DNA of 32,748 nt from Eubacteriales bacterium (GTDB lineage: Bacteria; Bacillota; Clostridia; Lachnospirales; Lachnospiraceae). This document shows positions 60-15,431 of this stretch, one piece after another. The notes under the pieces were generated by a model. That model saw only the letters and a list, made by a program, of their open reading frames with translations, was not told the DNA's origin and ran no database searches. The translations under genes and the position numbers were made by a program. The stretch's first letter is position 1. Each line of letters starts with the position of its first letter. Location: positions 1-32,748 of the forward strand of contig JAUNJG010000018.1 of NCBI GenBank assembly GCA_030533385.1. Direction: 5' to 3'.

Positions 60-87
60 TTGAGATTTTGTATCCTTCTGGTATAAT
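60..87 (+). promoter_or_regulatory. Sigma-A promoter for the first gene
   Basis: A -35 box TTGAGA (60-65) is separated by 16 bases from a perfect -10 box TATAAT (82-87). It would start a transcript about 60 bases before the ATG at 156. A 7-bp hairpin (104-110 with 116-122) lies in the leader but has no T-tract behind it. The promoter begins just 7 bases inside the repeat, so the repeat edge sits directly against it. Confidence 0.7.
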
Positions 88-155: not shown

Positions 156-722
156 ATGATTGTTGCAAAAATTGTTTTTGCCTTATGTGCCTGCCTGCTG
201 GCAGTCGGCATAGTGCAATGGAAGCATCAAAATGGAAAAAGAGAAAAACAAAAATACATTCTGGAATATGCGGAGAAGGTGACGGATTTAGAGACGCAAA
301 AAAAGGAAGAACAGCGGCGGCAGACGATGGAAGAAGAAAAAAGACAGAAGTTCCGCACATTCCAGCTGGATTTTATGATAACCCATGGATCTGCTTTTGG
401 AGGGTGTTGCGCCATCTGTGCGGATGGCCGCAGAAGGAAAGGATCTGTACCTCTTGACCATGTGTTGATGTACGGAAAGCATCCTTCCGGAAAGGATTTT
501 ACTTATTACATCGAGGAGCAGGGCCTGGAGATTAGGGCTTCGGAAGAGCCGGATGCACTGCTGGTTCGCTCAAAGGAAGCTCCCTTTGAGATAAGAGAGG
601 AAGGCATGGGACGAGACAGGGGCGTTTCGCTACATTCCGCCCTCATAAAAAAAGATATTTTATACTATATTATATTGGAGTCCCGCCATGAAATATCCAT
701 CAGGGCGACAAGGACATGCTGA
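156..722 (+). CDS. Membrane-anchored coiled-coil protein, unknown function
   Basis: A 188-residue protein that I do not recognise. Residues 3-20 form one hydrophobic helix without a lipobox, so it is probably a type II anchored protein. Residues 25-66 are a Lys/Glu/Gln-rich segment likely to be coiled coil. The C-terminal 100 residues are rich in alternating hydrophobic residues (for example KDFTYYIEEQGLEIRAS and KDILYYIILESRHEISI), suggesting a small all-beta domain. The anchor, coil and beta-domain layout is the same as in the FHA protein at 5884, but the FHA signature residues are absent. It is the first gene after a strong promoter, 64 bases ahead of the GTPase gene, so it probably belongs to the same transcript. 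The ATG at 156 has a GGAG site 10 bases upstream. Membrane placement is an inference from the single helix. Confidence 0.65.
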   Translation: MIVAKIVFALCACLLAVGIVQWKHQNGKREKQKYILEYAEKVTDLETQKKEEQRRQTMEEEKRQKFRTFQLDFMITHGSAFGGCCAICADGRRRKGSVPLDHVLMYGKHPSGKDFTYYIEEQGLEIRASEEPDALLVRSKEAPFEIREEGMGRDRGVSLHSALIKKDILYYIILESRHEISIRATRTC

Positions 723-786
723 GAACGGGACAAAAAGCTGTAAAAAGCAAAGAAGAGAACAGATGCACAGGAGGAAGACATAACAT

Positions 787-2208
787 ATGCAGGAAACAAA
801 AAAAATAAAAAAATGTCCCTATTGTTTTCGGAACATAGCGAATGACGAAGCAGGTTTTTTGCTCAGGCCGGACGGCGCCAGGTTTCTGTCTCCGGCATTG
901 AATGAGGTCGTTTCTCCGAAAAGAGATTTGGCCTATCTGTATTTTTGGAATGCCATGGGTGTTCCGGAGGAACAGGTAGATGACAATCGGATTTACATCG
1001 ACAATCAGGGGATGACTGAGTTAAATCAGGAGTTGACGGCGGCGGGGAGAGAGTTGGCGGTCAAGCATTTTGATACAGAAAGCCTGGGATATTCCTTTCA
1101 TGTGGAGGAGGGGGCGGTGACCCTTTATTCTAACACGATGATATGTCCGCATTGCCATAACGTGCTGCCTCATAATTTTTTTAAATATGAGATGCTCATG
1201 ATTGGGCTGGCGGGCAGCGTGGCCTCCGGAAAGACCGTCTACCTCTCTTCCCTGATGATGAACGGCTTTGATGCCATGCAAAGAGAAAACCTGGTGGTGA
1301 GGAACGCCGGGGGCAATCCTCATGACAATTATAAGGTGGAGATGGAAAAAAATGCAGATCGCCTGATGAAACGGGGCATTTGTCCCGGCTCCACCAACAA
1401 AACATTCCGAAAACCTATCTTTTTGGAGATCACTTATCGGGTGGAAGAAAAAGGGATGAGCATACTGACTGCCATTTATGACGTGGCGGGAGAGTTGATA
1501 CGGGAGAGTGCGGGAGTAGGACGCACCGGCTTTGTCCGCCACATGGATGGATTTATCTGTCTGGTAGATCCGTCTCAGATGCACCTGGAACATTCTTTCA
1601 TCACAAAGCAGATTCCCGAAGAAGAAAAGGTGCTGGAGAAGCTGCGCCTGATGTCCAAAGAAGAACAGATATCCATACAGAGACTGAGCAACCAAAATGG
1701 GAAACAGGTGATGGGACAGGGAGACTATCTGGTGGAGAAGGAAAACAGCGAAGAATATTTGTATGAGAGAAGGGCGGAGACCATTCTGGAGGCAATCCGA
1801 AGCGGAGTTGGCGATTCGGAGCTTGGAAAAAAATATATGGCTTTGACCATTGCAAAGAGCGACCTTCTGGAGGAGCTGGGAGAAATCCGGGGGTACTGCG
1901 GAAGCAGCCTGCTATTTGAGAGAAGTCGTCCGGTGTATGGCTTTATGAATATGGATCATCATTTTCTCAGGCAGGAGATTTTGAAACAAATTTTTGATAA
2001 AAAGGTGTTCCGGTTACAGAGAAATCTGGATGATTACAAGGAGAGCAGCCTGTTTGCCGTCTCCGCTCTGGGCTGTGAGACAGAGGAAGTCCGGGAGGAC
2101 GGAGGCGAAGTGACGAAGGCGGTGGGAAAGGTTCGTCCGATTCGGGTGGAAGAACCGGTACTTTGGATGGTTATGAAATATATGCGGGAGAGAGGGTGGC
2201 TGGAATGA
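787..2208 (+). CDS. Zinc-ribbon TRAFAC-type GTPase (double-GTPase 2-like)
   Basis: A 473-residue P-loop GTPase. A zinc ribbon is split in two: CPYC at residues 10-13 and CPHC at 120-123, with about 105 residues inserted between. The G1/Walker A motif GSVASGKT is at 143-150. The G3 motif follows a hydrophobic strand as YDVAGE, then comes the strand FICLVDPSQ. A G4-like motif AKSD is in the sequence TIAKSDLLEE. Among known families this combination best fits the TRAFAC-related GTPases that Aravind and co-workers grouped with GAP1 partners; the exact family cannot be fixed by eye. No membrane helix is seen, so it is probably cytosolic, perhaps recruited by the membrane partner encoded next. Its stop overlaps the next start as ATGA, which implies translational coupling. 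The start at 787 follows AGGAGG with a 12-base gap. Confidence 0.8.
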   Translation: MQETKKIKKCPYCFRNIANDEAGFLLRPDGARFLSPALNEVVSPKRDLAYLYFWNAMGVPEEQVDDNRIYIDNQGMTELNQELTAAGRELAVKHFDTESLGYSFHVEEGAVTLYSNTMICPHCHNVLPHNFFKYEMLMIGLAGSVASGKTVYLSSLMMNGFDAMQRENLVVRNAGGNPHDNYKVEMEKNADRLMKRGICPGSTNKTFRKPIFLEITYRVEEKGMSILTAIYDVAGELIRESAGVGRTGFVRHMDGFICLVDPSQMHLEHSFITKQIPEEEKVLEKLRLMSKEEQISIQRLSNQNGKQVMGQGDYLVEKENSEEYLYERRAETILEAIRSGVGDSELGKKYMALTIAKSDLLEELGEIRGYCGSSLLFERSRPVYGFMNMDHHFLRQEILKQIFDKKVFRLQRNLDDYKESSLFAVSALGCETEEVREDGGEVTKAVGKVRPIRVEEPVLWMVMKYMRERGWLE

Positions 2209-4217
2209 AAGCAGAATATTTAAGGCATGAATATACCTGGTCAAATCATTGTATCACAGGAAATTCTGTTGGATGGGGAATGACAGCGTCCACCTGTCCG
2301 GAAAAAAAAGAATTGCTCAGAGAGCTGGAAAAGACGGCCTTTGGGGCAGAGCCGGACAAGGCGGGACAGATGATGGTGGAGGAATTAAGCTACAATCCCT
2401 CCGTTGGTTTTGTAAAAATGACGGTGGTTCCCTGCAAGGCGGGTGAGGATAAGAGACAAAATAAAAAAGTATTTCTTTATCAGCCGAGGAGAGGAAAGCA
2501 GGCCGGGCCGGAAGAGTACATCGCCCCCTCCGGAATCTGGCAGGAGGAAGGAAAAGATGGATACCTCTCTTTGGTGGAGAGAGAGGTCATCGAAAAAAAT
2601 CCAGGAGACATCCTGGAAAAATGGAACATCTATGACCGGCTGCCGGATTTTTTGCGGGCGGTTTTTTGGTGTCTGTCAGAAAAGAGACAGGGGGTCAATA
2701 TTGTGGCTTCCTCCTGGGAGAAAAAAGAGTTTGCCAAAAATGCCGGGGAACTGATGTATGCGATTCATTCGCTATTGCCGAAAGAGTTGAGAAAAAAGGC
2801 GGGATACCTTTCCTATGCGGAGCAGGAGGAGACGAGAGAGTCTTTCTTTTTTTCCAAAAGGCCCTGTGGAAAGAATGTAATGTATTTAGATAAGATAGAA
2901 GACTTCCGAAAGGCATCGGAATCTCCTCTGGAAGAATATTTTTTCTATCATCTGGCCAGGCTCCTCGTGACAAATCCATCGGCCTACGCATCCTTTTTGG
3001 AGGAAGCTGACGGCTATCTGAAAAAATATGAGGGAAGCGGGAATATCCAAAAGAAGCTGGAATGGCTGTTCTATGATTTTTCCCGCCGAAATTCCGGAGA
3101 AGTGCTGGAAAAGGCGAAGCTGTTTTCGGAGATGGCCGAACTTTTTTACTGGGCTGCAAAAGAGCCGGAACTTAGGAAGGTTTCGGAGCGAATGATAAGG
3201 CAGTTCAGGGAGGACAGTTGGAGCGAGGAAGAAAAAGAAAATTATCTGTGCGCCCTTTTAGATGGAGTGACAAAAAGGGGACAGGAGACCATCTGCCGAG
3301 AGCTGGACTGGATTTTGCAGGGAATTTATGAGGCGGACAAGGAACGGTTTTTGGTGCAAAGAGAGATGGTAAAGGAGAGAAAAAAAGGGGTGTACGGTCT
3401 GCTTCTCCTCCTGCATCCGGAGCAGGAGGGAAGTTGGCAGGAGGCTGTCCTGGAAGAACATCTGGGTTCCTTTGAAGCGTTGGAAGAATACGTCCGCACC
3501 GTAGATCAGGAGAAGATACCGGAAGAGCTGGCCGAAAAAATCATGAACGGAGGAATCCGTCTGCTCAACGGAGATATTTTTTTGAAAAAGAGTTATGAGC
3601 AGATGGAATCTTTGATGTTATCTTTGCAAAAAAAAGAGCAGTGGGCGGAGATACTGGACACTGTGGTCAGACAGATGGAGCCGAAGGCGGAGACGTTTGA
3701 TGATGGGGAGGCGGAGACTGCCTGCTATGTGGAGGAACAGCTCGACCGTTATCTTCCGGGGGCGTCCCGGGGGATTCTCAGAGAAGAGTATGAAAAAAGA
3801 CAAAAGGCAGATGTGGAGCCTGCGGAGGAGATGGCTTTGGTTCCGGTGGAAGAAGAACCGGAAAACGGACGATTGGCAGACGCTTTGCTGGTGGGATATC
3901 CCCAGGGATTTCTAACCGGTTGTGCGCTCTATCTGTCCGGCTATTCCCTCGCCATCGGCCATTGGAAAATTGCCGTAGGTATGGGCGGGATGTGGTTGTT
4001 GTTTATGTTGAATTATTATTATATGCTTCTTCATAAAGAAAATCAGTATCCGTTTTGGAAAAACCTTGGCCTTTGTCTTCTGGAAGGATATGTGATTCAG
4101 TTTGTCGGAGGGTTGTTTTTGGCTCAGCAGCTTCGTCTCTACTATTTTCTTGTTCTCGGCGTACTGGCGGTGGGGATGCAGATTTTTAACATTGTGAGAG
4201 CGGGGCAAAAATCGTAA
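2205..4217 (+). CDS. GAP1-like GTPase-associated membrane protein
   Basis: A 670-residue protein. The ATG at 2205 overlaps the GTPase stop by four bases and has GAGAGGGTGG upstream; an in-frame ATG at 2163 would add 14 residues inside the GTPase gene and is less likely. The N-terminal ~90 residues form a mixed domain starting with an aromatic-rich strand (EYTWSNHC). Around residues 170-210 is the stretch HSLLPKELRKKAGYLSY, a pattern reminiscent of the LP..LR..LSF motif in GAP1-type proteins. A long helical middle part follows, and residues about 560-668 hold four hydrophobic helices. Known GAP1 proteins are encoded next to dedicated GTPases, which is the arrangement here. I infer that it is the membrane-bound partner or effector of the GTPase. 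The family call rests mainly on context and weak motif resemblance. Confidence 0.6.
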   Translation: MKAEYLRHEYTWSNHCITGNSVGWGMTASTCPEKKELLRELEKTAFGAEPDKAGQMMVEELSYNPSVGFVKMTVVPCKAGEDKRQNKKVFLYQPRRGKQAGPEEYIAPSGIWQEEGKDGYLSLVEREVIEKNPGDILEKWNIYDRLPDFLRAVFWCLSEKRQGVNIVASSWEKKEFAKNAGELMYAIHSLLPKELRKKAGYLSYAEQEETRESFFFSKRPCGKNVMYLDKIEDFRKASESPLEEYFFYHLARLLVTNPSAYASFLEEADGYLKKYEGSGNIQKKLEWLFYDFSRRNSGEVLEKAKLFSEMAELFYWAAKEPELRKVSERMIRQFREDSWSEEEKENYLCALLDGVTKRGQETICRELDWILQGIYEADKERFLVQREMVKERKKGVYGLLLLLHPEQEGSWQEAVLEEHLGSFEALEEYVRTVDQEKIPEELAEKIMNGGIRLLNGDIFLKKSYEQMESLMLSLQKKEQWAEILDTVVRQMEPKAETFDDGEAETACYVEEQLDRYLPGASRGILREEYEKRQKADVEPAEEMALVPVEEEPENGRLADALLVGYPQGFLTGCALYLSGYSLAIGHWKIAVGMGGMWLLFMLNYYYMLLHKENQYPFWKNLGLCLLEGYVIQFVGGLFLAQQLRLYYFLVLGVLAVGMQIFNIVRAGQKS

Positions 4218-4244
4218 ATCAGTCAGGAAGCAGAAGGAGAAAAG

Positions 4245-5810
4245 ATGAAAACACAGGAGAACACGGACCTTTTTTTAGAGCGGATTGAACAGAAGTTGGC
4301 GGGGGCCTATCAAAACAAGGTGCCATTTTCCAGATTTTTAGAAGAGAAGATGGATTGGTTTGACTATAGCAACACTGCCCTGGCAAAGAAAGTATTTCAC
4401 CGGGTAGAAAAAAAGGGGGAGGATGCCGCCCGGTATGTGCCGGTGACAAGGCAGACCATCGGTGCATGGTTGAAAGGCTCTATGCCTTCTTCCCGGGAAA
4501 TCTACATTACGCTGGGGATGGCCTTTGAGATGGGGCTGGAAGAGATTAACTATGTATTGTTAGAAACCTATATGGGGTATGGTCTGTATTGCAAAAATAT
4601 AGAGGACGCCCTTTGGATTGCCCTCATCAACGGTCTGTTCTCCATTCATGAGATGGAGCAGGTGAAGGCGCACATTGAAGAATTGCTGGACGGGCCGGAG
4701 CAGGAGGAAGAGAGAAGCCTTGCCACCATGGATTTGTGGGTGATGCTGTCAGAGGCCCGCTCCCTGGAACAGTTTTATGATTTGGTGCAGGCTTACAAAG
4801 AAGAGTTTCGGGATGGAGCAAAGCGGTTTGGTCAGTGTCTGGAGGAAGTCATTGAGGAGGAATACGGTTACTATGACAAGGCGGCGTGGATGCTCAGGGA
4901 TATCGGCCTTTTGCACTACGAAGCACAGTTTTCCAAGATAAAGGCCGGAAAAGCGGTAGTGACGAGAGAATGGCTGCTGCGCTTTTGCATCGCATTACAG
5001 CCCGGAATCTCCTCCATCGAAAAGCTTCTGGCAAAAGCCCAGATGGAACCGCTCGGAATCACTCCCGCAGAAATCATCATTGAGATGATCGCAAAATACA
5101 AGGCGGATACGGTGGCAGACAGCCAGAAAATATGGATGATGATAGAGTCGGCAGCGACGGCGCTGGGAAAAAGAGGGTATGAGCTGGAAGAAGATTTGTG
5201 CAGAAAATATGACTCCGTCTACAACCTTCCTTTTGCCCAGAAGTTGTGGTTCTCTATTTGCGTGGGACAACAGCTTTTGGAAAATCAGAAGAAAAAAGAT
5301 TACGGATACGAAAAAAACGGCTACTGCCGCTATATCATGACTGACAGGGTCTTGTTTGACGACGTGAATCGGAATAAGAAAAACAGCCAGTTTAAAAAAG
5401 ATGCCCTGAAGCTGACCTCCCATAAAAAGCCGGACAGCCTTCCCTCCTGTCAGGAGGTTCCCTCTCTGTCAATAGAAAGGGGATTTCAGCCGGACGTCTT
5501 TGATTTGGAGAAATTTGAGGACTACTGCTACATGAGAAGACCAAGCCGTTTTTCCAAAGACTTTGTGAGAAATGACCTCTATTATTACTGCGCCTTACTC
5601 TATTCCATCTGGTGTGGGAAATGTTTTCAGAAAGAGAAGGTGAAAGCGGAGGTGGAAGAACTAAGGGAAGAGTGGGAGAGGGAAGGCATCTGTTCTCAGG
5701 AACTCATAGGAATGTTGTCTCACAATCTGACGGAGGGAACGGCTTATGAGGAAGACTGTGACATTGTTCACATTGTGGAAGCTTTTTGTGCGTGCGGCAA
5801 AAGTGAATAA
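4245..5810 (+). CDS. Protein with two HTH-like repeats, unknown function
   Basis: A 521-residue protein, not recognised as a named family. Residues about 40-105 read like an XRE-type helix-turn-helix (ALAKKVFHRV, then VTRQTIGAWLKGSMPSSREI). A second segment at 232-270 (IKAGKAVVTREWLLRFCIAL) lines up with residues 77-114: both have K-x-G, then T/S-RE, a hydrophobic helix, G, and I..LL. This suggests an internal duplication of the HTH region. The rest is mainly helical, with a Tyr/Cys-rich C-terminus (DLYYYCALLYSIWCGKC). It starts 27 bases after the GAP1-like gene with AGAAGGAGAA as ribosome site. It may be a DNA-binding regulator of the locus, or a protein-protein adaptor that uses HTH folds. 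A regulatory role is an inference. Confidence 0.6.
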   Translation: MKTQENTDLFLERIEQKLAGAYQNKVPFSRFLEEKMDWFDYSNTALAKKVFHRVEKKGEDAARYVPVTRQTIGAWLKGSMPSSREIYITLGMAFEMGLEEINYVLLETYMGYGLYCKNIEDALWIALINGLFSIHEMEQVKAHIEELLDGPEQEEERSLATMDLWVMLSEARSLEQFYDLVQAYKEEFRDGAKRFGQCLEEVIEEEYGYYDKAAWMLRDIGLLHYEAQFSKIKAGKAVVTREWLLRFCIALQPGISSIEKLLAKAQMEPLGITPAEIIIEMIAKYKADTVADSQKIWMMIESAATALGKRGYELEEDLCRKYDSVYNLPFAQKLWFSICVGQQLLENQKKKDYGYEKNGYCRYIMTDRVLFDDVNRNKKNSQFKKDALKLTSHKKPDSLPSCQEVPSLSIERGFQPDVFDLEKFEDYCYMRRPSRFSKDFVRNDLYYYCALLYSIWCGKCFQKEKVKAEVEELREEWEREGICSQELIGMLSHNLTEGTAYEEDCDIVHIVEAFCACGKSE

Positions 5811-5843
5811 AAACAAAATTTGAATCAGAGAAAAAACCATGTT

Positions 5844-5883
5844 ATCCTCCTGTTATACCTATGTAGAACAGGAGTGATTTTTT
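5844..5883 (+). terminator. Terminator-like hairpin enclosing the FHA ribosome site
   Basis: CTCCTGTT (5847-5854) pairs with AACAGGAG (5867-5874). Outer ATC (5844-5846) can pair with GAT (5876-5878) around one bulged T. Six T residues (5878-5883) follow and run directly into the ATG at 5884. The only good Shine-Dalgarno sequence of the FHA gene, GGAG at 5871-5874, is inside the 3' arm. The element could act as a terminator between the GTPase half and the FHA/FtsW/PBP half, as an attenuator, or as a translational switch that hides the ribosome site. Confidence 0.7.
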
Positions 5884-6624
5884 ATGTCCATTTTATCGCA
5901 GATCGGCGTTGTCATATTGATTGTCTGTATCATCTTTATCTTGGTTCGGGCAAATCGCACTCTGGAAGATGCCGCCCGGGAGGGAGAACATTTTGTGGAT
6001 GAGTGGGAGCTTCGTCAGCAAAAAAAGGAGGAGCGGCTGCTCCAAAAGAAGGAGAAGGCGGAAAAGAAAAAGCTGGAAAGGAAAGAGACGTGGCGGCGGG
6101 CGTCTTCCCCTGGAAGTGGAGAGGAGAATTTGCTGTCAGAAACCTGGAAGGAAGAGCCTAAACCTAAAGAGGAAGGAAGCGAAGAAGAATGTTTTGTTCA
6201 GGCTGAAATCGAGGCAGTGGAGGAGGAAGCAATCTTTTCTTCAAAAATTGTCTCCATGCGCCGGTATAAAAATCCGGGGATTGTTCTTGTGGAGATGGAT
6301 GTAAACCACCGTCCGGTACGCCGGATACCGGTGGAACGGCTGCCCTTTACCATAGGAAGAAGCCCGGACAACATGCTTGTGCTGGATGATCTGTATGTGG
6401 CAAGGAAGCATGGAAGAATCGTGGAAGAAGGAGGAAATTATATTCTGGAGGACATGGGGACGGCCAACAAAATTTTTGCCGATGGCAAAGTGACAGATCG
6501 GGTCACTCTGTCTCATAAGCAGACATTTTATCTTGGAAATGTAGAGTTTTGCGTGGAGCTGGAAAAGGAAGGGGCGGGCGCTCCTTTCCGCTATCAGAGG
6601 GCGGAGGAAGAATACTATGAATAA
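5884..6624 (+). CDS. Membrane-anchored FHA-domain protein
   Basis: A 246-residue protein. Residues 5-22 are a membrane helix; 40-70 are almost entirely Lys/Glu/Arg and should form a coiled coil; 80-120 are acidic linker; 140-230 are an FHA domain. FHA signs are FTIGRSPDN (G158, R159), VARKHGRI (H176, G177), then YILEDMGTANKIFADG, where the NG-type turn is present in modified form. FHA domains bind phosphothreonine; the probable writers and eraser (kinases, PP2C) lie downstream in the same locus. The Ser that normally precedes the RxH motif and touches the phosphate is Ala173, so binding may be altered. The gene overlaps the FtsW-like gene by 8 bases. It likely serves as the phospho-dependent scaffold that recruits FtsW/PBP regulators at the membrane, by analogy with FhaB of Actinobacteria. 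Confidence 0.85.
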   Translation: MSILSQIGVVILIVCIIFILVRANRTLEDAAREGEHFVDEWELRQQKKEERLLQKKEKAEKKKLERKETWRRASSPGSGEENLLSETWKEEPKPKEEGSEEECFVQAEIEAVEEEAIFSSKIVSMRRYKNPGIVLVEMDVNHRPVRRIPVERLPFTIGRSPDNMLVLDDLYVARKHGRIVEEGGNYILEDMGTANKIFADGKVTDRVTLSHKQTFYLGNVEFCVELEKEGAGAPFRYQRAEEEYYE

Positions 6625-8257
6625 GAAAGGGGACGCAGATACTGTGTTTTCCGCAGAAAGATTTTTATGGGAGCTGCAAAGGGCTTTTTACTCTATGAAA
6701 AACAGTCCTGTTTTGGCAGTAATTTTGTTTGAAGGTGCGGCCTTTATCGTGGTGCATGCCAAGGGAGCGGGAAAGATATACGGGGACATGATCGGCATTT
6801 TACTTCTTATCACCCTGCTTGGCTGGCTTTTGAACTCAATGATGCACGGGAACAAGAAAATAGTGACGGGGGCGTTTCTTCTTTTGACGGTGGGAACAAT
6901 GCTGCAATGCATCATGAAGCAGGAACAGCTGATAAAAAATCCGGGAACAGGGCAGACGGGCAATCCGGCAGCGGACTTGCAGATACAATATCTGGCAGCA
7001 TTTGCCGCCGCAATTGTTATGGCGACGGTCTACCGGAAATGTCCGAAGATTGCGAGTATGAGGGCATGCCGGATTCTCACGGCATCTGCCCTGTCCCTCT
7101 CTGCCCTCACTTTGATTGTGGCGAAAGGAGTGGGCAACGTAAAAAACTGGATTCATATCGGAGGCATATCCTTGCAGACGACGGAGATAGTAAAATTGCT
7201 GTATGTCTTTATTGCGTCGGCTTTGCTCGGGACGACAAAGCAGCCCTCCCCGCAAAGAATCCGGGTGTTTTATGGCGTCACAATTGCAGAGGGTTTCTTT
7301 TTGGCAATGCAAAGTGAATTTGGAACGATGCTCCTGCTTTTGATGGTATTTTTCACCTATGTGTTTTTGTTTCTCCCTGATATCAAAGTTTTTTTTAAGA
7401 CGATGGCAGTTCTTGGGGTGTGCGTGACGATCGCCGTGATGGCGGGAATCCAGCTTGACCGGTGGCGGGAAGCCGGTCTTTTTCTGGGAACCAACCCAGC
7501 TGCTGGTCTGTATTTATCCAATTACCATAAAATAACCAATCGCTTTATTTACTGGATGAACCCGGAAAAAGATGCCCTGGGGCTTGGATACCAGCTTTTA
7601 AAGGCGAGGGAATCCATCGTGCTTGGCGGATGGTTTGGAACTGCCTCCGTGACAGATTTGCCGGTGAAAACCAGCGATTTGGTTTATCCGGCTCTCATTC
7701 AGCGATGCGGCATGGTGTTCGCACTTTTGATTTTTTTTGTGTACATTATGATGTGGCTGGAGGGAATCCGCCTTGTCATCCGAAAGCAGGATCGATACCA
7801 TCAGGCGGTGGGTGCCGGACTGATTTTCATGTTTTTTGATCAGACGTTGATTATCATCGGGGGAAGTACCGGACTTTGTCCGTTGACGGGAATCACCCTG
7901 CCCTTTATTTCCAGCGGGGGAAGCTCGCTGATGGTTACCTTCATGACAATTGGGCTTTTGCTGGCAATTTCCGGGAACATAAAATGGAAAGGAACCGTAC
8001 AAAATGAAGAAGATGAATTTTTTAAAGAGAATGCAATGGCTGCAAAGTGTTACGCTGCTTTGCGTCATTTTTATGCTCATCTCCCTCGTCCGAATTTCCG
8101 CCCTGCTGCCGGGAGTCTCCGAGGAGGCGGACAGACAGAAAACGAAGGCAAAGGAAAAGATGTATGTCAGAGAGTACATAAGAGGGAGCATCAAAGACAG
8201 AGAGGGAAACATTCTGGCGGCTTCCGAAAAACCGGGAGGAAAAAGAAGGTGCAGTGA
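6617..8257 (+). CDS. FtsW/RodA/SpoVE-family peptidoglycan glycosyltransferase
   Basis: A 546-residue multi-pass membrane protein of the SEDS family, which polymerises lipid II into glycan strands together with a class B PBP. Family signs: KNWIHIGGISLQTTEIVK (the usual QPSE is QTTE), the loop KTSDLVYPALIQRCG with the putative catalytic Asp354, and the C-terminal signature ITLPFISSGGSSL before the last helix. An N-terminal extension of about 80 residues adds extra helices compared with minimal FtsW. The family core ends near residue 455. The reading frame continues for another 84 residues (basic, Gly/Arg-rich) that overlap the PBP gene for 254 bases. That tail is either a shadow extension or the mark of a lost stop codon. 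The gene sits between an FHA gene and its PBP partner, the arrangement of actinobacterial rodA-pbpA. Confidence 0.88.
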   Translation: MNKKGDADTVFSAERFLWELQRAFYSMKNSPVLAVILFEGAAFIVVHAKGAGKIYGDMIGILLLITLLGWLLNSMMHGNKKIVTGAFLLLTVGTMLQCIMKQEQLIKNPGTGQTGNPAADLQIQYLAAFAAAIVMATVYRKCPKIASMRACRILTASALSLSALTLIVAKGVGNVKNWIHIGGISLQTTEIVKLLYVFIASALLGTTKQPSPQRIRVFYGVTIAEGFFLAMQSEFGTMLLLLMVFFTYVFLFLPDIKVFFKTMAVLGVCVTIAVMAGIQLDRWREAGLFLGTNPAAGLYLSNYHKITNRFIYWMNPEKDALGLGYQLLKARESIVLGGWFGTASVTDLPVKTSDLVYPALIQRCGMVFALLIFFVYIMMWLEGIRLVIRKQDRYHQAVGAGLIFMFFDQTLIIIGGSTGLCPLTGITLPFISSGGSSLMVTFMTIGLLLAISGNIKWKGTVQNEEDEFFKENAMAAKCYAALRHFYAHLPRPNFRPAAGSLRGGGQTENEGKGKDVCQRVHKREHQRQRGKHSGGFRKTGRKKKVQ

Positions 8258-9374
8258 TTCCATGGCATATTCTAACCTGATTGGCTACTGGTCCATAAAA
8301 TATGGAACTTACGGAATCGAGGACACCTTTGATGAACTATTGCAACATAGTGCCTCTCCGAAGGGAGAAAAGCGGGGGGCCGATGTGACCTTGACCTTGC
8401 GGGAAGATTTGCAAAAAGAGGCCTACCGGCTCATAGAAGACATGATCGGGTCTGTGGTCGTTTTAGATGTGAACACCGGGGAGATTCTTGCCATGGCTTC
8501 TTCTCCGTCTTTTTCTGTAAACGAGCTGGAGGAAAAATGGGAGGAAATTAATCAGACAGATGGGGTGTTTTATTCTAACGCATATCAAAATCCGGTTTCG
8601 CCGGGATCGGTTTTTAAGTTGGTGACTTCCAAGGCGATTCTTGAGGAGGGAATGGAGAAGGAGAAGGTGGATGATGAGGGAAGCATGGTCATCCACGGCC
8701 AGACAATCCGAAATTATAATGGTACGGCTTACGGCCCACTGGATTTTGAGGGAGGATTCGTCAAATCTTCCAACGTATACTTTATGAACCGGGCGTTAAA
8801 GATGGGGGGAAGGAGATTGCAGGAGGCAGCGGAAAGCTTCCTGCTGGGGCAGGAGATCGCCCTTGACTTTGGGACGATAAAATCTACGTTTCATCTGGAT
8901 GATTACAATGACAACCTGGTGGCGGCCACCGCCTTTGGGCAGGGAGAGACGCTGGTGACACCCCTGCACATGGCGATGATCGTGCAAAGCATTGCCAACG
9001 AAGGCAAGATGAACAAGCCTTACCTGATACGGTCTGTCGTCAATGCAAAAGGAAAGGTGATACAGGAAGGAAAAGAAGAGATTTTGACAGAGACCATGGA
9101 GGCCTCCACGGCAAAGAAAATCCGGGAGGTAATGACAAAGGCCGGGGAAGCCTACGGGCTAAAGCAGGTGGGAAAAGATGGTAAAATTGCTGCCAAGACG
9201 GGAACTGCCCAGAGGGGAGACGGCACCAACAATGCGTGGCTTGTGAGTTTTGCTCCCGCCCAAAATCCCCGGTACGTCGTCGTGGCAAATCGTTTAAAGA
9301 CAAAGGAAATCGGAAAATCGATGGCCCCGGTGGTGGAGGCGCTCTATGAGAGTCTGTTTCAGCAGGAGCAGTGA
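8004..9374 (+). CDS. Class B penicillin-binding protein, PbpA-like transpeptidase
   Basis: A 456-residue D,D-transpeptidase that cross-links peptidoglycan. Residues 11-34 are a membrane anchor. YIRGSIKDREGNILA (58-72) is the usual motif after the anchor. The short following part (SNLIGYWSIKYGTYGIED) resembles the small N-terminal domain of actinobacterial PbpA rather than the large dimerisation domain of PBP2 or PBP3. Catalytic motifs are complete: SVFK (S202, K205), SSN (255-257) and KTGTAQ (from 398). The start overlaps the FtsW-like frame by 254 bases, but the anchor and RGxI motif show that the PBP frame is the true one here. An AAAGGAACC ribosome site lies about 10 bases ahead. Its last 16 bases overlap the convergent kinase-like gene. 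It is the probable dedicated partner of the SEDS enzyme. Confidence 0.9.
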   Translation: MKKMNFLKRMQWLQSVTLLCVIFMLISLVRISALLPGVSEEADRQKTKAKEKMYVREYIRGSIKDREGNILAASEKPGGKRRCSDSMAYSNLIGYWSIKYGTYGIEDTFDELLQHSASPKGEKRGADVTLTLREDLQKEAYRLIEDMIGSVVVLDVNTGEILAMASSPSFSVNELEEKWEEINQTDGVFYSNAYQNPVSPGSVFKLVTSKAILEEGMEKEKVDDEGSMVIHGQTIRNYNGTAYGPLDFEGGFVKSSNVYFMNRALKMGGRRLQEAAESFLLGQEIALDFGTIKSTFHLDDYNDNLVAATAFGQGETLVTPLHMAMIVQSIANEGKMNKPYLIRSVVNAKGKVIQEGKEEILTETMEASTAKKIREVMTKAGEAYGLKQVGKDGKIAAKTGTAQRGDGTNNAWLVSFAPAQNPRYVVVANRLKTKEIGKSMAPVVEALYESLFQQEQ

Positions 9375-10054
9375 GAGAGCATCTGAAAAAAAGTGTCTAA
9401 ATCCAGGTGGGGAGAGGGGGTTCTTCCTGTCTCCAAAAGGCGGAACAAGGAGGAGGGAGGATTGCTGATGCGCTCCTGCTCCATCAGTTCGTAAAATAAG
9501 AGGGTCATCTCCTGAATGAGAAGTTGCTGACCCTTCAGGGCGGGAGACAGATTGTAAGAAAAACGCAGGGAATAGGCCGGACGAGGATTGTGCAAAAAAT
9601 AATAGCAGTAAGTATAATCGACCAGTTTTATCTTCCAGTCTTCATCCTGGCGAAAGACGATCAAATTAGAAGGATTCAAATCTGTGTAAAGAACACCATG
9701 TTCCAACAGATAGCGCAGCACGTCAAAGACGGAGAGCATTACCTCCTTTAGTTCTGCCAGAGAAAGAAGGCGGCCGGGAGACGGTTTTTGGCAGTCTTCC
9801 ATGCAAAGAACCAGAGACGGTTTTTCCTGTCCGGGAAGGAGCATTTCTTCGACCAGAGCATAGTATTTGGGGACGGAAGGGTGAGAGAGGGAGGATAAAA
9901 TATAATATTCATCATAAAAAGCCTGTTTTATGGCGGTATCTTTTGTTATAATAGATTTCAGAATGTAATCGCGGGAGGCGTCCGATGCCCGGTAGAGGGT
10001 GATATCCTTCTTTTTTTGAAAAAATGTGATGGATGTGAGCTGGTCTGGGTGCAT
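9359..10054 (-). CDS. Small divergent Ser/Thr kinase-like protein
   Basis: A 231-residue kinase-fold protein. DYILKSI places the beta-3 Lys at residue 33. The catalytic loop is YTDLNPSN (D125, N130) in place of HRDLKPEN, and the metal-binding DFG is VDY at D146. The core Lys/Asp/Asn/Asp set is therefore present, so activity is possible. No glycine-rich loop is visible, and the C-lobe is short (typical domains have about 260 residues). The gene runs against its neighbours: its stop lies 16 bases inside the PBP gene end. The chosen ATG at 10054 has AGGAGG about 7 bases upstream and a promoter 34 bases further up; a longer in-frame extension runs antisense to the PP2C gene and is rejected. Separate transcription suggests control independent of the plus-strand genes. 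Confidence 0.8.
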   Translation of the reverse strand: MHPDQLTSITFFQKKKDITLYRASDASRDYILKSIITKDTAIKQAFYDEYYILSSLSHPSVPKYYALVEEMLLPGQEKPSLVLCMEDCQKPSPGRLLSLAELKEVMLSVFDVLRYLLEHGVLYTDLNPSNLIVFRQDEDWKIKLVDYTYCYYFLHNPRPAYSLRFSYNLSPALKGQQLLIQEMTLLFYELMEQERISNPPSSLFRLLETGRTPSPHLDLDTFFQMLSHCSC

Positions 10055-10087
10055 GGGAGTCCTCCTGTCTGAAAAATTGCTGGGGAC

Positions 10088-10116
10088 AGTGTAACACAAA
10101 GAAGGGGAATTGGCAA
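10088..10116 (-). promoter_or_regulatory. Sigma-A promoter for the kinase-like gene
   Basis: On the minus strand, TTGCCA (10111-10116) is followed by exactly 17 bases and TACACT (10088-10093). Transcription would start about 30 bases before the ATG at 10054. No equally good plus-strand promoter for the PP2C gene was seen in the same 129-base divergent gap. Confidence 0.65.
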
Positions 10117-10183
10117 TTGCTTCGGTGGGGGGAGCGGTCTCCCTTTGGCAGATGAGGATGTAAAATACGAAGGAGGGAGAAGG

Positions 10184-11122
10184 GTGGCATTCTATTTTGA
10201 GACAGAGAAAAATAAGCGCTCCGCAAACGAGGACAGTTTTTGCCACATGGAAATGAGAATCAATCTGGAGGCGTCTGTCAGCGCCATGGTGGTGGCGGAC
10301 GGCATGGGGGGACTTTCCGACGGAAAGATGTACTCGGAGACGGCGGTGGAGCTTTGGTACCGGGGACTTCTTCAGACGATGATGGGGGAAGGCTTCCGGG
10401 ATTGTTCTTTGCATCAGCAGATTGAGACGCTGGAAGAATATTCAGAGCATATTTTTGAAAGGATAAACCGTCGTCTTTATAAAAAGGGGCTGGACGCAGG
10501 CGTAAAGGGAGGGACGACTCTGTCCACGGCAATCCATTTCTGGGATACCTGGATTATTGCAAACTGCGGGGACAGTCCGATTTACGGAATGAAAAACGGC
10601 GTGCTTTCACTTCTTGGCGAGATACAAAATGTGGCAAACCAGATGGTGAAAAAAGGAACGACAAAAGAAGGAAGTTCTCTTTTTTACCAAAATAAAAACC
10701 GTCTGACGGACTATCTGGGAAAGAGGGGGGAAGTTCACCCGTTTTGTGCCCGTCTGTCGGAAAAGGAGGCGGACTGCATTTTGATAGGGTCAGACGGCGC
10801 CTTCGGCAATCTGGATTTGGATGCCATAGAGAAGATTTTTAATACCCAGCAGGCGCCGGGACAGATGATAAAGGAATTGTTTGAGCAGGCGAGGGCATCA
10901 GGGGAGGAGGACAACCAGACGGTGATTTTGTACCAAAAGGATGAGGAAAAAGCCATGGAGATTTTCCAGTCGGATATGTATCAGGAGCTGAAGCTGGAAG
11001 AAGCCTTTTCGGGAGCAGTCACTCCTCTTTGTTCTTACACGGAGGTTCCGAAACAAAAAAAAGAACCCGGTCTGATGGATTGGCTGTTCAGACACCGAGG
11101 CGGGGGAGGAAAAAATAAATGA
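10184..11122 (+). CDS. PP2C-family Ser/Thr protein phosphatase
   Basis: A 312-residue metal-dependent phosphatase that should reverse phosphorylation by the neighbouring kinases. The motifs appear in family order: RSANEDSF, VADGMGGLSDG, GGTTLSTAI, ANCGDSPIYG, LIGSDGAFG and GEEDNQTV. All the metal-binding Asp positions are thus present. No membrane helix is seen, unlike PstP of Mycobacterium, so the enzyme is probably cytosolic. The GTG at 10184 is chosen because AGGAGG ends 7 bases before it; an upstream TTG at 10145 would lack such a site. The stop overlaps the start of the kinase gene as ATGA, showing tight coupling of eraser and writer. Confidence 0.92.
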   Translation: MAFYFETEKNKRSANEDSFCHMEMRINLEASVSAMVVADGMGGLSDGKMYSETAVELWYRGLLQTMMGEGFRDCSLHQQIETLEEYSEHIFERINRRLYKKGLDAGVKGGTTLSTAIHFWDTWIIANCGDSPIYGMKNGVLSLLGEIQNVANQMVKKGTTKEGSSLFYQNKNRLTDYLGKRGEVHPFCARLSEKEADCILIGSDGAFGNLDLDAIEKIFNTQQAPGQMIKELFEQARASGEEDNQTVILYQKDEEKAMEIFQSDMYQELKLEEAFSGAVTPLCSYTEVPKQKKEPGLMDWLFRHRGGGGKNK

Positions 11123-12345
11123 ATCAATATTTTGAGGAGGGAGAAATTTTTACCTGGGTAAAGGATCGGGAAAAAAACGAGCCGTCCCTTGTCATCGCCT
11201 TGAAAATGCAAAAGGAAAGCTATCGGAATGGAAGCAAGCAGGCGATGATTGCACAGGACATCCGCACCGGGAAAAAATATTTTCTGAAGGTGCTGTTTTG
11301 CAGTAATCTGGAACAGATTTATGTGGAGAAAGAAAGCAAGGTACAGCTGTATTCCCCCTACATTATCCGCATTTACGGAGGAATGCTGGATGAGAAGAAT
11401 CGCAGGTTCATCACCCTTGTGGAATATATTGAGGAGAGGGATTTGTCAGATCTGGTGAGCGGCCGGGGGCTTGCGGGCAAGACATGGAATGAAAAGCTGA
11501 AAACCTGCCATATCATCGCCTTGAAGTTTTTGTACGGCATTGACCATTACAATTCCCTGCATGGCAGGGATCCCATCGTGCATCGGGATTTAAAGCCGGA
11601 AAACATTCTGGCTTCGCCGGACGGAAGCACGGTAAAGATTATTGATTTTGACTGGGTGCATCTTCACGATTCCAACGTGACGGTCATGTACCGGAGGGAG
11701 CAAAAAGGGACGCCCGGCTACGCAGACCCCCATTATTGGAACAGCTACATCTGCCGCCGGGAGATGGATATTTATTCCGCCGGCCTTGTGCTTTATTTTT
11801 TGTATACAGGAACCCATCATTTTCATGGGAACGAAGAATTGCAGCGGTATATGCTGGGGGATGATTACGCTTATGAGATTAAGGAGATGCCCGGCATTGA
11901 TGAGCGGCTGACGGCGATTTTGGCAAAAATGATTGCCAGGGAAGAATACAGATACCGGGATATCCGGGAAGTGATTCGGGATATGGAGGCCTACCTCCGC
12001 TCCATTGGAAAGCTGCCGGAACTGCCGGAACTGTTGAGGCAGGAGGAGGGGAAGGATACGATACGCCTTTCTTACAAGGTGGGTGACGTCAAGTACAGCC
12101 CTTACCTGAAAAATTATCGGTTTGTTCCCATTGAGTTTGGGAAAAAACAGGAAAGAAGCCAAAACGGAAAAAAGAGCGGGCATATTTTGTCCTTTTACCG
12201 CATGGGAGATTGTATCAAGGCGGTGATTTTTCATGAGGATTGTCACAGGCTCATAGAAAAAATTCCGGGCAGGGTCAGCGAGGGAGACCTGTTTTCCTAC
12301 GGGGGAGTCAACATAGAGATATTGCAGATAAAGAAAAGAGGATGA
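11119..12345 (+). CDS. Hanks-type Ser/Thr protein kinase
   Basis: A 408-residue kinase. Beta-3 Lys57 is in KKYFLKVL; the catalytic loop VHRDLKPEN has D157 and N162; the metal site is IIDFDWV, so DFG is DFD; the activation segment ends KGTPGYADPHYW; MDIYSAGLVLY is the alpha-F helix. A clear GxGxxG loop is missing in the N-lobe. There is no membrane helix and no PASTA repeats, so this is not the usual PrkC/Stk1 of Firmicutes. Residues about 310-408 form an additional domain with beta character (SGHILSFYRMGDCIKAVIF and onward) of unknown type, perhaps for substrate or scaffold binding. It overlaps the PP2C gene by four bases and is followed after 21 bases by the vWA gene. Confidence 0.92.
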   Translation: MNQYFEEGEIFTWVKDREKNEPSLVIALKMQKESYRNGSKQAMIAQDIRTGKKYFLKVLFCSNLEQIYVEKESKVQLYSPYIIRIYGGMLDEKNRRFITLVEYIEERDLSDLVSGRGLAGKTWNEKLKTCHIIALKFLYGIDHYNSLHGRDPIVHRDLKPENILASPDGSTVKIIDFDWVHLHDSNVTVMYRREQKGTPGYADPHYWNSYICRREMDIYSAGLVLYFLYTGTHHFHGNEELQRYMLGDDYAYEIKEMPGIDERLTAILAKMIAREEYRYRDIREVIRDMEAYLRSIGKLPELPELLRQEEGKDTIRLSYKVGDVKYSPYLKNYRFVPIEFGKKQERSQNGKKSGHILSFYRMGDCIKAVIFHEDCHRLIEKIPGRVSEGDLFSYGGVNIEILQIKKRG

Positions 12346-12366
12346 GGATAGCAGGGAGGATGCAAA

Positions 12367-13047
12367 ATGAAGGAAGAATGGAATCCGGAGATTCCTTATG
12401 AGATACAGCAGCAGTTTTTAAAAGAGAAAGAGCAGGCCTTTACTTTATATCTGGATTTTGTGGTGGACGGAACGGCGTCCATGTACACCGTGTTTCCGGC
12501 GGTTTACTATGCGGCGACTCATTTTCTGGAATGTTTGTCCAAGTATGAGGTGTATCCGAAAATGGGGCTGACGATTATCAGGAATGAATTGGCCGGGGAG
12601 GAGACGGGAAAGGTCGTATTTGAGGACGGCAGCTTTTTTACGGGAGAGCTGTCCGTATTTTTAAAAAAATTAAAGTCCGTTCCTCTGTATGGAGGCGGGG
12701 AAGATGGAAAAGAGTCGGTGCATACCGCCATAAAAAAATCGCTGCGAAAATTTCCGATGCAGGGAAGAAACCGGGCTGTCTTTGTGTTCACCGACGCCTA
12801 CGGAAGCTGTGATTATGAGGAGTTTACCGACGAGCCTCTGGGGCAGGTCATCTTTTTTTCCACGGAGGAGATGAGTGAAGAAGATTTTCGCTTCTGTTTC
12901 ATGAAGGCAGACGGAGAGCTGGACGAGGAGGCCTCTCCTATGTTTGTGGACTTTTCTATGATTTTAAAGCCTATGAGCGCAGAATTTTTAGATAACATTG
13001 TCAAACCGCTGAAGGATTTGGTGAAGGGAGTTTCGATTGGTGCATAG
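12367..13047 (+). CDS. von Willebrand factor A (vWA) domain protein
   Basis: A 226-residue protein that is essentially one vWA domain. The metal-ion-dependent adhesion site is DGTAS (34-38, matching DxTxS) after the strand LYLDFVV. GGEDGKESVHTAI supplies the central loop and VFVFTDAYG the later Asp strand. Intracellular vWA proteins of this size often act as metal-dependent adaptors; several are encoded beside Ser/Thr kinases and PP2C, as in ter-type and vWA-MoxR-type loci. No signal peptide is seen. A GGGAGG ribosome site lies shortly ahead of the ATG. The end overlaps the next gene by 8 bases. A role as adaptor for the kinase is an inference from position. Confidence 0.85.
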   Translation: MKEEWNPEIPYEIQQQFLKEKEQAFTLYLDFVVDGTASMYTVFPAVYYAATHFLECLSKYEVYPKMGLTIIRNELAGEETGKVVFEDGSFFTGELSVFLKKLKSVPLYGGGEDGKESVHTAIKKSLRKFPMQGRNRAVFVFTDAYGSCDYEEFTDEPLGQVIFFSTEEMSEEDFRFCFMKADGELDEEASPMFVDFSMILKPMSAEFLDNIVKPLKDLVKGVSIGA

Positions 13048-14320
13048 AGAAAATGAGACGATAGGTATGCTTCCGGAATCGAAGGAGGAGTTTTTTCAGA
13101 GCGGCCATCCGGTCATTCGTCAGCTCAGGGAAATCAAAGAAATTATATTTGAAGACGAAAAAGAACTGCCGCCGGGCGTGCTGTCTTTAAAAAAGCTGTT
13201 TCAGAGAAAGCAGATGGATGAATACCACATTGACTGCCTCGTTCTTTATAAGATTGCGCTGGGCGTGCTGAAAATCCTGAGAAAATTGTCAGATATTCCT
13301 GTTTATCCGGGGTTGATTGACCTGGAAGATTTTTATGCAGATATCAGAAGTCTGTCTCCCCGGGTGTTTTTAAAAAATCCCGGGCGATTTCAGATTTTAC
13401 ATTATGAGCAGGAGTACGAGTGGTATCCCGAGGATGAGAGAATGTTTGGGGATGTGGTGCTTTTTGGGGAGGAGGAGCAAAAGAAGGCCGATGTCCGCTT
13501 GCTTTACAAAGTGCTGGTGGCCAGCGCAAAGGGAAATGTGCGGATTCCTCCGAAGATGAACCAGACGGACTATTCGGAACTGTTTTACCAGACTCTTCCT
13601 GACGAGTGGAAACAGATATTTGAGGGCAGGGCCGACGTTGATTATGAGCAGATGGAACTGTTGTTGCGGGAATCCATCGAGATGGAGGAGAACTTTGCAA
13701 GGAAGGCAAGAGAACGGCGCTGTGAAAAGGCGGGGAAACATGACAAAAAGGAAGAGTGGGGAGCAGAGCAAAAGCAGGGAGTGGGAAAAACATTGTTTTG
13801 CTTGCTGGTTATTTTGCGGACGGAGCTGGAGGAAGCCGGAAAAATCAGCAGGCTTCTCTATCAGCAGCAAGACGAGTTGGAACTGGAAGCTTCTCTGTCG
13901 GGGTTGTCCTGTGAGCAGGCTTTTATCTATGGGAGTACCACCATATCCCTGCGGAAATTTCGCTCATATCCCCCGGGATTTCGATGTCAGTGTATACAGC
14001 AGATCAAAGAATATTCTGTCGGGGAAGCCTTGATTTTGGCCGCAGACTACATGGAGCAGACGATGGGCAGCCGGGGAGAGGGAGAGTATCGCACCTATCT
14101 CATTGCCGATGGGAGGCTGGAAAATGACAAGGTGTTTCAGGTTGCCGCAGATTTGCTGGAAAAAAGGCAAAAGGAGGGAATGAGGCTCTACCTTGTCTCA
14201 GGAGAAGACAGTCAGTGCGAAGCCTTTGCCAGGCTGGAAAAGCTGGTGGAACATCAGGAGGAAGGAAATGTTAATTCGGGCAATTCGACGATTTCGGGAG
14301 AAGACCGAGCAGGAATATAA
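13040..14320 (+). CDS. Unknown protein, possible pseudokinase plus degenerate vWA
   Basis: A 426-residue protein counted from the GTG at 13040, which has GAAGGGAG nine bases upstream; a TTG at 13037 or an ATG further in are alternatives. I do not recognise it. Residues about 60-200 are weakly kinase-like: a helix ALGVLKILRKL, then VYPGLIDLEDFYADI at the place of a catalytic loop, and DVRLLYKVLVASAKGNVRIP at the place of helix F, but no catalytic residues. Residues 225-250 are charged. The C-terminal 170 residues contain YRTYLIADGRLENDKVFQVA and MRLYLVSGED, which resemble late strands of a vWA domain without a MIDAS. Both readings are tentative. It overlaps genes on both sides, so it is part of the kinase operon. 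Confidence 0.6.
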   Translation: MHRENETIGMLPESKEEFFQSGHPVIRQLREIKEIIFEDEKELPPGVLSLKKLFQRKQMDEYHIDCLVLYKIALGVLKILRKLSDIPVYPGLIDLEDFYADIRSLSPRVFLKNPGRFQILHYEQEYEWYPEDERMFGDVVLFGEEEQKKADVRLLYKVLVASAKGNVRIPPKMNQTDYSELFYQTLPDEWKQIFEGRADVDYEQMELLLRESIEMEENFARKARERRCEKAGKHDKKEEWGAEQKQGVGKTLFCLLVILRTELEEAGKISRLLYQQQDELELEASLSGLSCEQAFIYGSTTISLRKFRSYPPGFRCQCIQQIKEYSVGEALILAADYMEQTMGSRGEGEYRTYLIADGRLENDKVFQVAADLLEKRQKEGMRLYLVSGEDSQCEAFARLEKLVEHQEEGNVNSGNSTISGEDRAGI

Positions 14321-14747
14321 GCGTTTGGAACAAGAAGGAATGGAGCAGTGGAAAAAGGATGTCATGCATCTTCATGAGAGGGCGGAGTTCCTTTTTTATT
14401 ACGAGGAGGCGGACACCGTGCAGGGAAGCCTTCTTCAATTTCAGCTGACGGGAGAGCTTGTCAAAGGGCGAAGAGAGGCCGGGGACAGGCTGTATCTTTA
14501 CAGCGGAAGAGGAGAATGGCTGGCGGAGGCGGAATATATCAGGGAGGAAGAAGAGGAGGAAGAACGGCATCTGGGCGTACTTCACCGAAAACAAAATCGC
14601 TTCGTCATCAAGATTCGCAGCTTATGCGGAGAGGAGGTGGGGACGATGGAGGTGGGGCTGTACCGGAAAAAGGTGTCGGAAATGTTTTCTTCCCTGTCTC
14701 TTCTTGCAGACTGCCCGCCTGTGCAGTCCCGCTCCGGGGCGTCGTGA
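14268..14747 (+). CDS. Small protein with coiled coil and possible EF-Tu-domain-2-like barrel
   Basis: A 159-residue protein of unknown function. The ATG at 14268 has AGGAGGAAGG directly upstream and lies 53 bases inside the previous gene; a longer in-frame start at 14193 has no comparable site. Residues 5-45 are charged and helical. Residues 55-90 read LLQFQLTGELVKGRREAGDR and so on, which fits the G-x-V..G....GD-x-L pattern of EF-Tu domain 2-type beta barrels. An acidic run (EEEEEEE) follows, then more beta strands. There is no GTPase domain in it. It closes the plus-strand run of the locus and ends 3 bases from the convergent gene at 14751. The barrel assignment is a pattern-level guess. 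Confidence 0.6.
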   Translation: MLIRAIRRFREKTEQEYKRLEQEGMEQWKKDVMHLHERAEFLFYYEEADTVQGSLLQFQLTGELVKGRREAGDRLYLYSGRGEWLAEAEYIREEEEEEERHLGVLHRKQNRFVIKIRSLCGEEVGTMEVGLYRKKVSEMFSSLSLLADCPPVQSRSGAS

Positions 14748-15260: not shown

Positions 15261-15302
15261 AAGTACCTCCTGATGATGAAAATTTGTTTTGCCAAAAAGC
15301 TC

Positions 15303-15331
15303 AGGACAAAAAAGAAGCTGTGACATATAGT
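15303..15331 (+). promoter_or_regulatory. Putative promoter for the 71-residue protein
   Basis: AGGACA (15303-15308), a 17-base spacer and TATAGT (15326-15331). The -10 box is part of a short direct repeat, TATAGTATAGTG. Transcription would begin about 90 bases before the ATG at 15432. Confidence 0.45.
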
Positions 15332-15431
15332 ATAGTGTATGGAGACAGATGGGTCGATGTGTCTCTTTTGCACAAGAAAAAATTTGACGGTTCTGACAGT
15401 ATGGAAAAGAAAGAAAAAGGGAAGGAATATC

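Follow-up and report, generated by a model that had tools for sequence, protein, structure and literature searches.

A conserved Anaerobutyricum locus joins a DO-GTPase/GAP1 pair, protein kinases and a PP2C phosphatase to an additional SEDS-PBP wall synthase pair

GTPase-centric systems that pair a DO-GTPase with a GAP1 protein are, as far as our literature search reaches, known from genome comparison, and they are predicted to act in biological conflict (Kaur 2020, PMC7159879). According to the main text of that study, the systems with a GAP1-N2 protein are predicted to work near the membrane, some of the GTPases being fused to peptidoglycan-binding domains, and the name GAP1 means ‘GTPase-associated protein 1’, not a demonstrated GTPase activator. 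One GAP1-N2 theme (theme 3) with a kinase, a PP2C phosphatase and a standalone vWA protein is there restricted to Actinobacteria; it is described without wall synthases (the main text has 0 occurrences of ‘penicillin’), and FHA is mentioned there for the effectors of another system. Here, we describe a locus at positions 156 to 14,747 of a 32,748-nucleotide stretch of Lachnospiraceae DNA (the window; contig JAUNJG010000018.1 of GCA_030533385.1), in which a GTPase and a GAP1-like protein of this kind stand in front of a SEDS polymerase, a penicillin-binding protein (PBP), kinases, a phosphatase and vWA proteins. We propose, at about even confidence, that the locus encodes a membrane unit in which an accessory peptidoglycan synthase is gated by the GTPase and by phosphorylation. 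The window makes up all of contig C94 in a draft genome of 2.7 Mb and 174 contigs, and the locus consists of thirteen genes behind a promoter, several neighbouring genes overlapping by a few bases as read from the positions of the open reading frames (ORFs):

60..87, + strand: sigma-70-type promoter TTGAGA-16-TATAAT with TG before the -10, ahead of ORF188; 11/12 matches
156..722, + strand: ORF188, with a transmembrane (TM) helix, a coiled coil and a probable FHA-like C-terminal domain (predicted fold)
787..2208, + strand: DO-GTPase2-type GTPase with two CPxC zinc knuckles (profile-profile match, alignment, motifs)
2205..4217, + strand: diverged GAP1 (GAP1-N2/M-like) with C-terminal TM segments (profile-profile 95.8%, hydropathy)
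4245..5810, + strand: putative helix-turn-helix (HTH)/XRE-like protein, strongly conserved (alignment; distant relative in a kinase/PP2C/vWA locus)
5884..6624, + strand: FHA protein with N-terminal TM, FhaB-like layout (PF00498 E 9e-12; TM from hydropathy)
6617..8257, + strand: SEDS polymerase of the FtsW/RodA family, the 3' end of the ORF overlapping the PBP gene (PF01098 E 9e-43)
8004..9374, + strand: PbpA-like class B PBP, a transpeptidase (PF00905, PF21922)
9359..10054, - strand: KINm, a minimal protein kinase, antisense (PF00069 E 1.5e-12)
10145..11122, + strand: PP2C phosphatase, start codon uncertain (PF13672; NCBIfam Stp1 E 1e-33, below its cut-off)
11119..12345, + strand: KIN2, a cytosolic Ser/Thr kinase, no PASTA and no TM found (PF00069 E 7e-24; hydropathy)
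12367..13047, + strand: standalone vWA protein with a partial metal-ion-dependent adhesion site (MIDAS) (VWA_4 E 1e-5, just under cut-off)
13037..14320, + strand: U427, a probable pseudokinase-vWA fusion (predicted fold)
14268..14747, + strand: U184, a small conserved protein and last gene of the run (alignment of 13 orthologues); neither a Pfam nor an NCBIfam match

An earlier, sequence-only reading of the window had named most of these genes, and they are where it placed them: Pfam recognises the FHA, SEDS, transpeptidase, PP2C, kinase and vWA proteins, and profile-profile comparison the GTPase and the GAP1-like protein. Taken alone, the GTPase scores under the Pfam DO-GTPase2 cut-off (22 vs 27 bits); its profile matches those of canonical DO-GTPases with probability 100 and E 1.4e-42, and the P-loop, YDxxGE and KxD are retained in 24/24 alignment rows. 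The GAP1-like protein has no Pfam match, and Pfam GAP1-N2 matches 0/5 genomes. Its profile reaches probability 95.8 and E 7.5e-9 against canonical GAP1 proteins, and 92.5, matching the middle part only, when the distant sequence of a second lineage (G141, below) is left out; three unrelated control profile pairs gave 0.1. Judged from these alignments, the GTPase is of DO-GTPase2 type with N-terminal zinc ribbons, and the protein beside it is a sequence-diverged GAP1 of the GAP1-N2 plus GAP1-M type, as in GAP1-N2-type systems.

The closest published kind is GAP1-N2 theme 3. As that theme is described in the main text of Kaur 2020 (PMC7159879), the locus shares with it a zinc-knuckle DO-GTPase2, an adjoining membrane GAP1, an active-looking kinase, a PP2C phosphatase and a standalone vWA protein, but its host is a member of the Lachnospiraceae, its GAP1 is too diverged for Pfam, and it additionally encodes a SEDS-PBP pair, two proteins of FHA type and a putative HTH protein. 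Because no FN3 match, and hence no FNIII-repeat component, was found in 13/13 locus proteins at E 0.1, we regard the locus as a related variant of GAP1-N2 systems and do not file it as a member. With the tubulin-type GAP1-N2 systems it has in common the DO-GTPase2-GAP1 pair and, through its counterpart in G141, a vWA protein near the GTPase (a TM-vWA protein directly upstream in G141, a vWA protein nearby in the tubulin-type locus L057), but this locus contains no tubulin. The TerY-P triad consists of a vWA protein, a PP2C phosphatase and a Ser/Thr kinase with a C-terminal zinc ribbon (Anantharaman 2012, as given in PMC11090510). PP2C, kinase and vWA genes likewise stand side by side here (10145-13047), but the tail of KIN2 lacks paired cysteines and the three genes are embedded in a GTPase and wall-synthase locus; the vWA protein matched VWA_4 below the cut-off (E 1e-5) in a search that included no TerY model.

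The sequence-only reading had instead taken the set of FHA, rodA, pbpA, phosphatase and kinase genes as a hallmark of Actinobacteria. The mycobacterial locus fhaB-pstP-rodA-pbpA-pknA-pknB does share a TM-FHA protein, a SEDS protein, a PbpA-type PBP, a PP2C phosphatase and a kinase with the locus, but here the kinases lack PASTA and TM segments, the gene order is another one, a small kinase gene runs in the opposite direction, Ala replaces Ser in the FHA domain, and GTPase, GAP1, vWA and HTH genes are added. The kinase, PP2C and vWA set is closer to GAP1-N2 theme 3 and to the TerY-P triads. That the combination is not a named system is supported: no paper describing it was found in the open-access literature, to which the search was confined, subscription papers lying mostly outside it.

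The wall synthase pair of the locus is additional to an ordinary one. The PBP has a transpeptidase domain (Pfam E 8e-55) and a PbpA dimerisation domain (E 8e-8), its SxxK/SxN/KTG motifs are intact in 16/16 rows, and the PEKD..G.GYQ motif of the SEDS protein is kept in 17/18. In one relative (L046, a metagenome assembly) SEDS and PBP form a single in-frame ORF of 908 codons (L046:8802-11528), which supports the two proteins working together; in the window the end of the SEDS frame covers, in a different frame, roughly the first 250 bases of the PBP gene (6617-8257 / 8004-9374), and most genus members have a SEDS frame of comparable length. PBPs that match the locus PBP profile at E<=1e-40 were found in 108/120 sampled family genomes, that of the window included. 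A SEDS gene stands beside such ordinary PBPs in 10/10 loci inspected, one of them in the window’s own genome, and none of the other 11 locus profiles matches there; the PbpA dimerisation domain is present in 2/2 ordinary PBPs tested. The window’s genome has its ordinary pair on contig C148 and four SEDS genes in total, and G141 likewise has a second PBP that matches the profile. That the pair is an extra one agrees with the dedicated pair suggested by the sequence-only reading; its actinobacterial hallmark finds no support in these counts. In a tree of 52 PBPs, one of whose rows (HK_L173) is 12% filled and which holds no actinobacterial PBPs, one branch (100/100) parts the 16 PBPs of the system from 36 others. 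Plain transfer of an actinobacterial-type cluster was rejected, given the matching PBPs across the family and the separate branch of the system PBPs.

The locus is a constant part of its genus. The GTPase is present in 24/24 Anaerobutyricum genomes and in 3/121 others of the same search. Scanning named genomes with the GTPase alignment and two peptide patterns gave 21 loci with 64-86% identity to the window GTPase; three of them, A. hallii DSM 3353 being one, carry the name Anaerobutyricum and are the basis of the genus name used here. The contigs of 13/23 relatives span ORF188 to vWA with identical gene order in all 13, and the remaining 10 stop within the locus and show the same order up to their ends. 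The ‘one tight run’ of the sequence-only reading needs amending, since KINm (9359-10054) is inverted in 17/17 loci that reach it (15 genus loci, G141 and the window). The upstream NTP-transferase-like gene is found in 20/21 named loci, with one partial case, and genes resembling AraC and CTP synthase (named by eye) lie further upstream; the downstream stretch reaches aspartate aminotransferase, murF or gyrB in 9/13 full contigs, L044 being without the aminotransferase. Protein distances of seven locus members track those of the NTP-transferase-like gene (r 0.72-0.85, the pairs not being independent), which together with the shared flanks suggests that the locus has been inherited vertically at one chromosomal position. 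Values of dN/dS were 0.04-0.38 where obtained, and we do not lean on them, synonymous sites being saturated or missing in most pairs. Rows shorter than 75% of the length or interrupted by stops, the duplicate L054 and the fused SEDS of L046 were excluded from profiles.

Conservation extends to a second, distant lineage. In G141 (locus L055), from another family of the same order, nine recognisable genes have the same order and strands, and window proteins directly match eight of them at 25-36% identity. Profiles built without G141 find the GTPase (E 3e-36), GAP1 (8e-27), HTH protein (5e-24), SEDS (2e-36), PBP (2e-100), KINm (8e-17), PP2C (5e-43), KIN2 (2e-44) and vWA (5e-17). The FHA slot holds a 208-amino-acid protein with an N-terminal hydrophobic stretch. 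In place of ORF188, just upstream of the GTPase, lies a 907-amino-acid membrane vWA protein, whose C-terminus gives a profile-profile probability of 1.5 when compared with ORF188, the real score being reached by 6/1765 scored shuffles out of 2000 made; a 180-amino-acid protein after the vWA gene matches U427 weakly (probability 7.9, E 8e-5). One gene order in two such distant lineages argues for a functional unit, and by these alignments the arrangement is old and no local accident. We also noted on the same contig a large frame running from after the vWA region to the contig end (L055:17864-19999), Walker-A-like and helicase-like by eye, with no Pfam match.

Related pieces exist apart elsewhere. 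In four loci tested (L056, L057, L075, L131), tubulin-like proteins accompany other DO-GTPase2s or the neighbours of these, and across the 21 other DO-GTPase loci inspected (L056-L058, L075, L079-L082, L131-L143; some only 3-5 kb long) the HTH, FHA, SEDS, PBP, KINm, PP2C and vWA profiles gave no match at E 0.01, L141 matching GAP1 and L079 matching KIN2. Conversely, a locus of genome G473 has a relative of the HTH protein (probability 96.6, E 5e-10) with two PP2C proteins, a kinase, a 467-amino-acid protein without Pfam match, a vWA and an FHA protein, and the GTPase, SEDS and PBP profiles find no match in the 20 kb seen; comparison of U427 with the 467-amino-acid protein gave probability 35.8 and E 4e-4. 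The genes in G473 (L076:7138-15644: a single run of PP2C, HTH relative, 467-amino-acid protein, vWA, PP2C and kinase that the FHA gene adjoins) are possibly an undescribed signalling module in their own right. The sequence-only reading had asked whether the GTPase half and the FHA-to-vWA half occur independently and meet only here. Relatives of the halves do occur apart, so that the locus combines modules, yet it is one conserved unit in the genus and in G141 and hence not adjacent only here; by sequence comparison the combination is old and kept.

The phosphorylation genes look catalytically competent. KIN2 keeps HRD..N and DFD in 15/15 rows and KINm its Lys, Glu, Asp, Asn and Asp in 17/17, and the PP2C phosphatase (Pfam E 7e-6) has DGMGG, GDS and [ST]DG in 16/16, its first NxD motif lying outside 4/16 rows whose starts were set downstream of it. 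As the sequence-only reading had said, these kinases are unlike the PASTA type: Pfam and hydropathy found neither PASTA nor TM segments in KIN2 or KINm, and a PASTA kinase is encoded elsewhere in the genome (contig C130, next to rsgA). The two kinase-fold proteins of that reading both match Pfam, and predicted folds suggest that U427 is a third kinase-fold protein, a pseudokinase-vWA fusion, and that ORF188 is a membrane-anchored FHA-like protein. Gly-Arg is retained in 15/17 rows of the FHA protein, and DxTxS and [ST]D in 15/15 rows of the vWA. The double HTH once assigned to the product of 4245..5810 has indirect support from an HTH_3 match at E 0.09 in the distant G141 relative, but the window protein itself has no HTH match in Pfam.

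In light of this gene content and order, the extra SEDS-PBP pair, the catalytic motifs and the SEDS-PBP fusion, how might the unit work? The accessory synthase, made of the SEDS polymerase and the PbpA-like transpeptidase, would have its activity or assembly gated by two switches. One would be a nucleotide switch, the DO-GTPase and its membrane GAP1 partner reporting a signal at the membrane; the other would be a phosphorylation switch, with KIN2 and KINm opposed to PP2C in determining which state the synthase or its anchors adopt. Docking scaffolds could be provided by the FHA-type proteins in the membrane (FHA and ORF188), the vWA protein and the pseudokinase-vWA protein U427, and the HTH protein could be a regulator or an additional scaffold. 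Such control would be akin to the threonine phosphorylation of other membrane machines, as by PpkA/PppA/Fha in type VI secretion and PknB/PstP/FhaB in mycobacteria. Both the action of these switches on the synthase and its direction are our inference. More tentatively, with rather less than even confidence, we suggest that genus-core growth control arose here by domestication of a GTPase/GAP1 switch of the conflict type. The GTPase- and phosphorylation-gated accessory wall complex, with its pseudokinase-vWA and non-classical FHA proteins as scaffolds, would then define a lineage of its own among GTPase-centric systems, one that leads to peptidoglycan synthesis and not to cell killing.

Several observations weigh against a gated wall complex of this kind. 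FHA domains usually carry a phosphate-contacting Ser at a position where the FHA protein has Ala in 16/16 genus rows, and in G141 neither Pfam nor the genus profile (E 0.05) identifies the occupant of the FHA slot as an FHA protein, which makes phospho-threonine docking doubtful; the vWA protein lacks the middle MIDAS threonine, and together with the FHA Ala this incomplete site weakens a simple docking model. ORF188 proper, U427 and U184 are unrecognised in G141 save for the weak U427 match. Outside the genus, one genome alone was found with the locus in the class, order and family samples: in G141’s family the GTPase occurs in 1/58 genomes, G141 itself, and no other near match appeared in the 391 class or 344 order genomes sampled, where the next GTPase matches after G141 reached 65 and 58 bits and a copy that has diverged further could have been overlooked. 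L055 forms a long branch in the PBP tree, as does the one poorly filled row. Finally, genes that stand in a single run may be regulated together and yet have no mechanism in common.

The alternatives differ in which part of the locus they take as central. An anti-phage or envelope-attack system, in which GTPase, GAP1, kinase and vWA proteins sense an invader or wall damage and SEDS-PBP is the response (repair or deliberate growth arrest), would follow from the predicted conflict role of DO-GTPase/GAP1 systems in the main text of Kaur 2020 (PMC7159879) and from the link of TerY-P-like modules to defence (PMC11090510, citing Gao 2020); the best PADLOC model for KIN2 is the defence kinase MAD6 (E 6.5e-26), a model on which many kinases may score. 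However, the two kinases are the only PADLOC matches among the 10/13 proteins scanned (all but SEDS, PBP and U184), no nuclease, pore or peptidase family exceeds its Pfam cut-off in 13/13 locus proteins, and presence in every genus genome searched with the same flanks, as under vertical inheritance and unlike patchy defence islands, makes a defence role less likely; we consider it an unlikely explanation, at perhaps one chance in several. Slightly less probable still is a constitutive regulator of growth that parallels the mycobacterial FhaB-PstP-RodA-PbpA-Pkn set, the GTPase and GAP1 being merely co-transcribed with another job. The common genes (FHA, SEDS, PbpA, PP2C, kinase), the sigma-70-like promoter and the separate relatives of the two halves speak for it, but both lineages retain GTPase and GAP1 next to the other half, and the kinases have neither PASTA nor TM while an ordinary PASTA kinase is encoded elsewhere.

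Improbable by comparison is a TerY-P-like stress-signalling module that senses metals or oxidants through vWA and has the wall synthase as a chance target: PP2C, kinase and vWA genes are adjacent in that order and the HTH relative keeps company with vWA, PP2C and kinase in G473, but KIN2 has no C-terminal zinc ribbon and the vWA protein matches VWA_4 weakly in a search without a TerY model. An accidental or assembly-made juxtaposition could be imagined because the window is a single contig from a draft in 174 contigs and metagenome assemblies are common among the relatives; the same order is, however, present in A. hallii DSM 3353 (L039) and in a one-contig 3.5 Mb genome (G005/L040), and accident was rejected as scarcely credible, the order being shared by all full genus contigs and G141. 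The gated accessory synthase remains our preferred reading.

A gut bacterium and its close relatives thus have such a switch tied to intact-looking wall enzymes, at a fixed chromosomal site in all the Anaerobutyricum genomes sampled, which makes the locus a concrete target for asking what DO-GTPases sense and control. It may also offer a new route of regulating SEDS-PBP synthases in Firmicutes, beyond PASTA kinases.

Expression signals and neighbouring genes complete the description. In 17/22 genus regions upstream of ORF188, the best site has TATAAT and a 16-base spacer; promoter-like sites in the window overall are not above shuffles (12 vs 16.0), and we used the conserved site before ORF188 alone. 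The sequence-only reading had considered use in a special state such as sporulation; this sigma-70-like site at 60-87 gives no hint of a sporulation sigma factor. Terminator-like sites in the window number 32 vs 17.8 expected, and no RNA family or tRNA reached its gathering score there. At the locus end, a protein on the minus strand (14751-15497) is kept in part of the genus, with no Pfam match over its cut-off, followed on the same strand by a short Cys/Gly-rich protein with CC and CG runs (15727-15957) that also has no Pfam match and that some genus members conserve upstream of the aminotransferase. Further along, 23707-30865 holds more envelope genes, namely an L,D-transpeptidase (YkuD, PG_binding_4), a sortase and a sulfatase-family protein, which we take to resemble lipoteichoic acid synthases.

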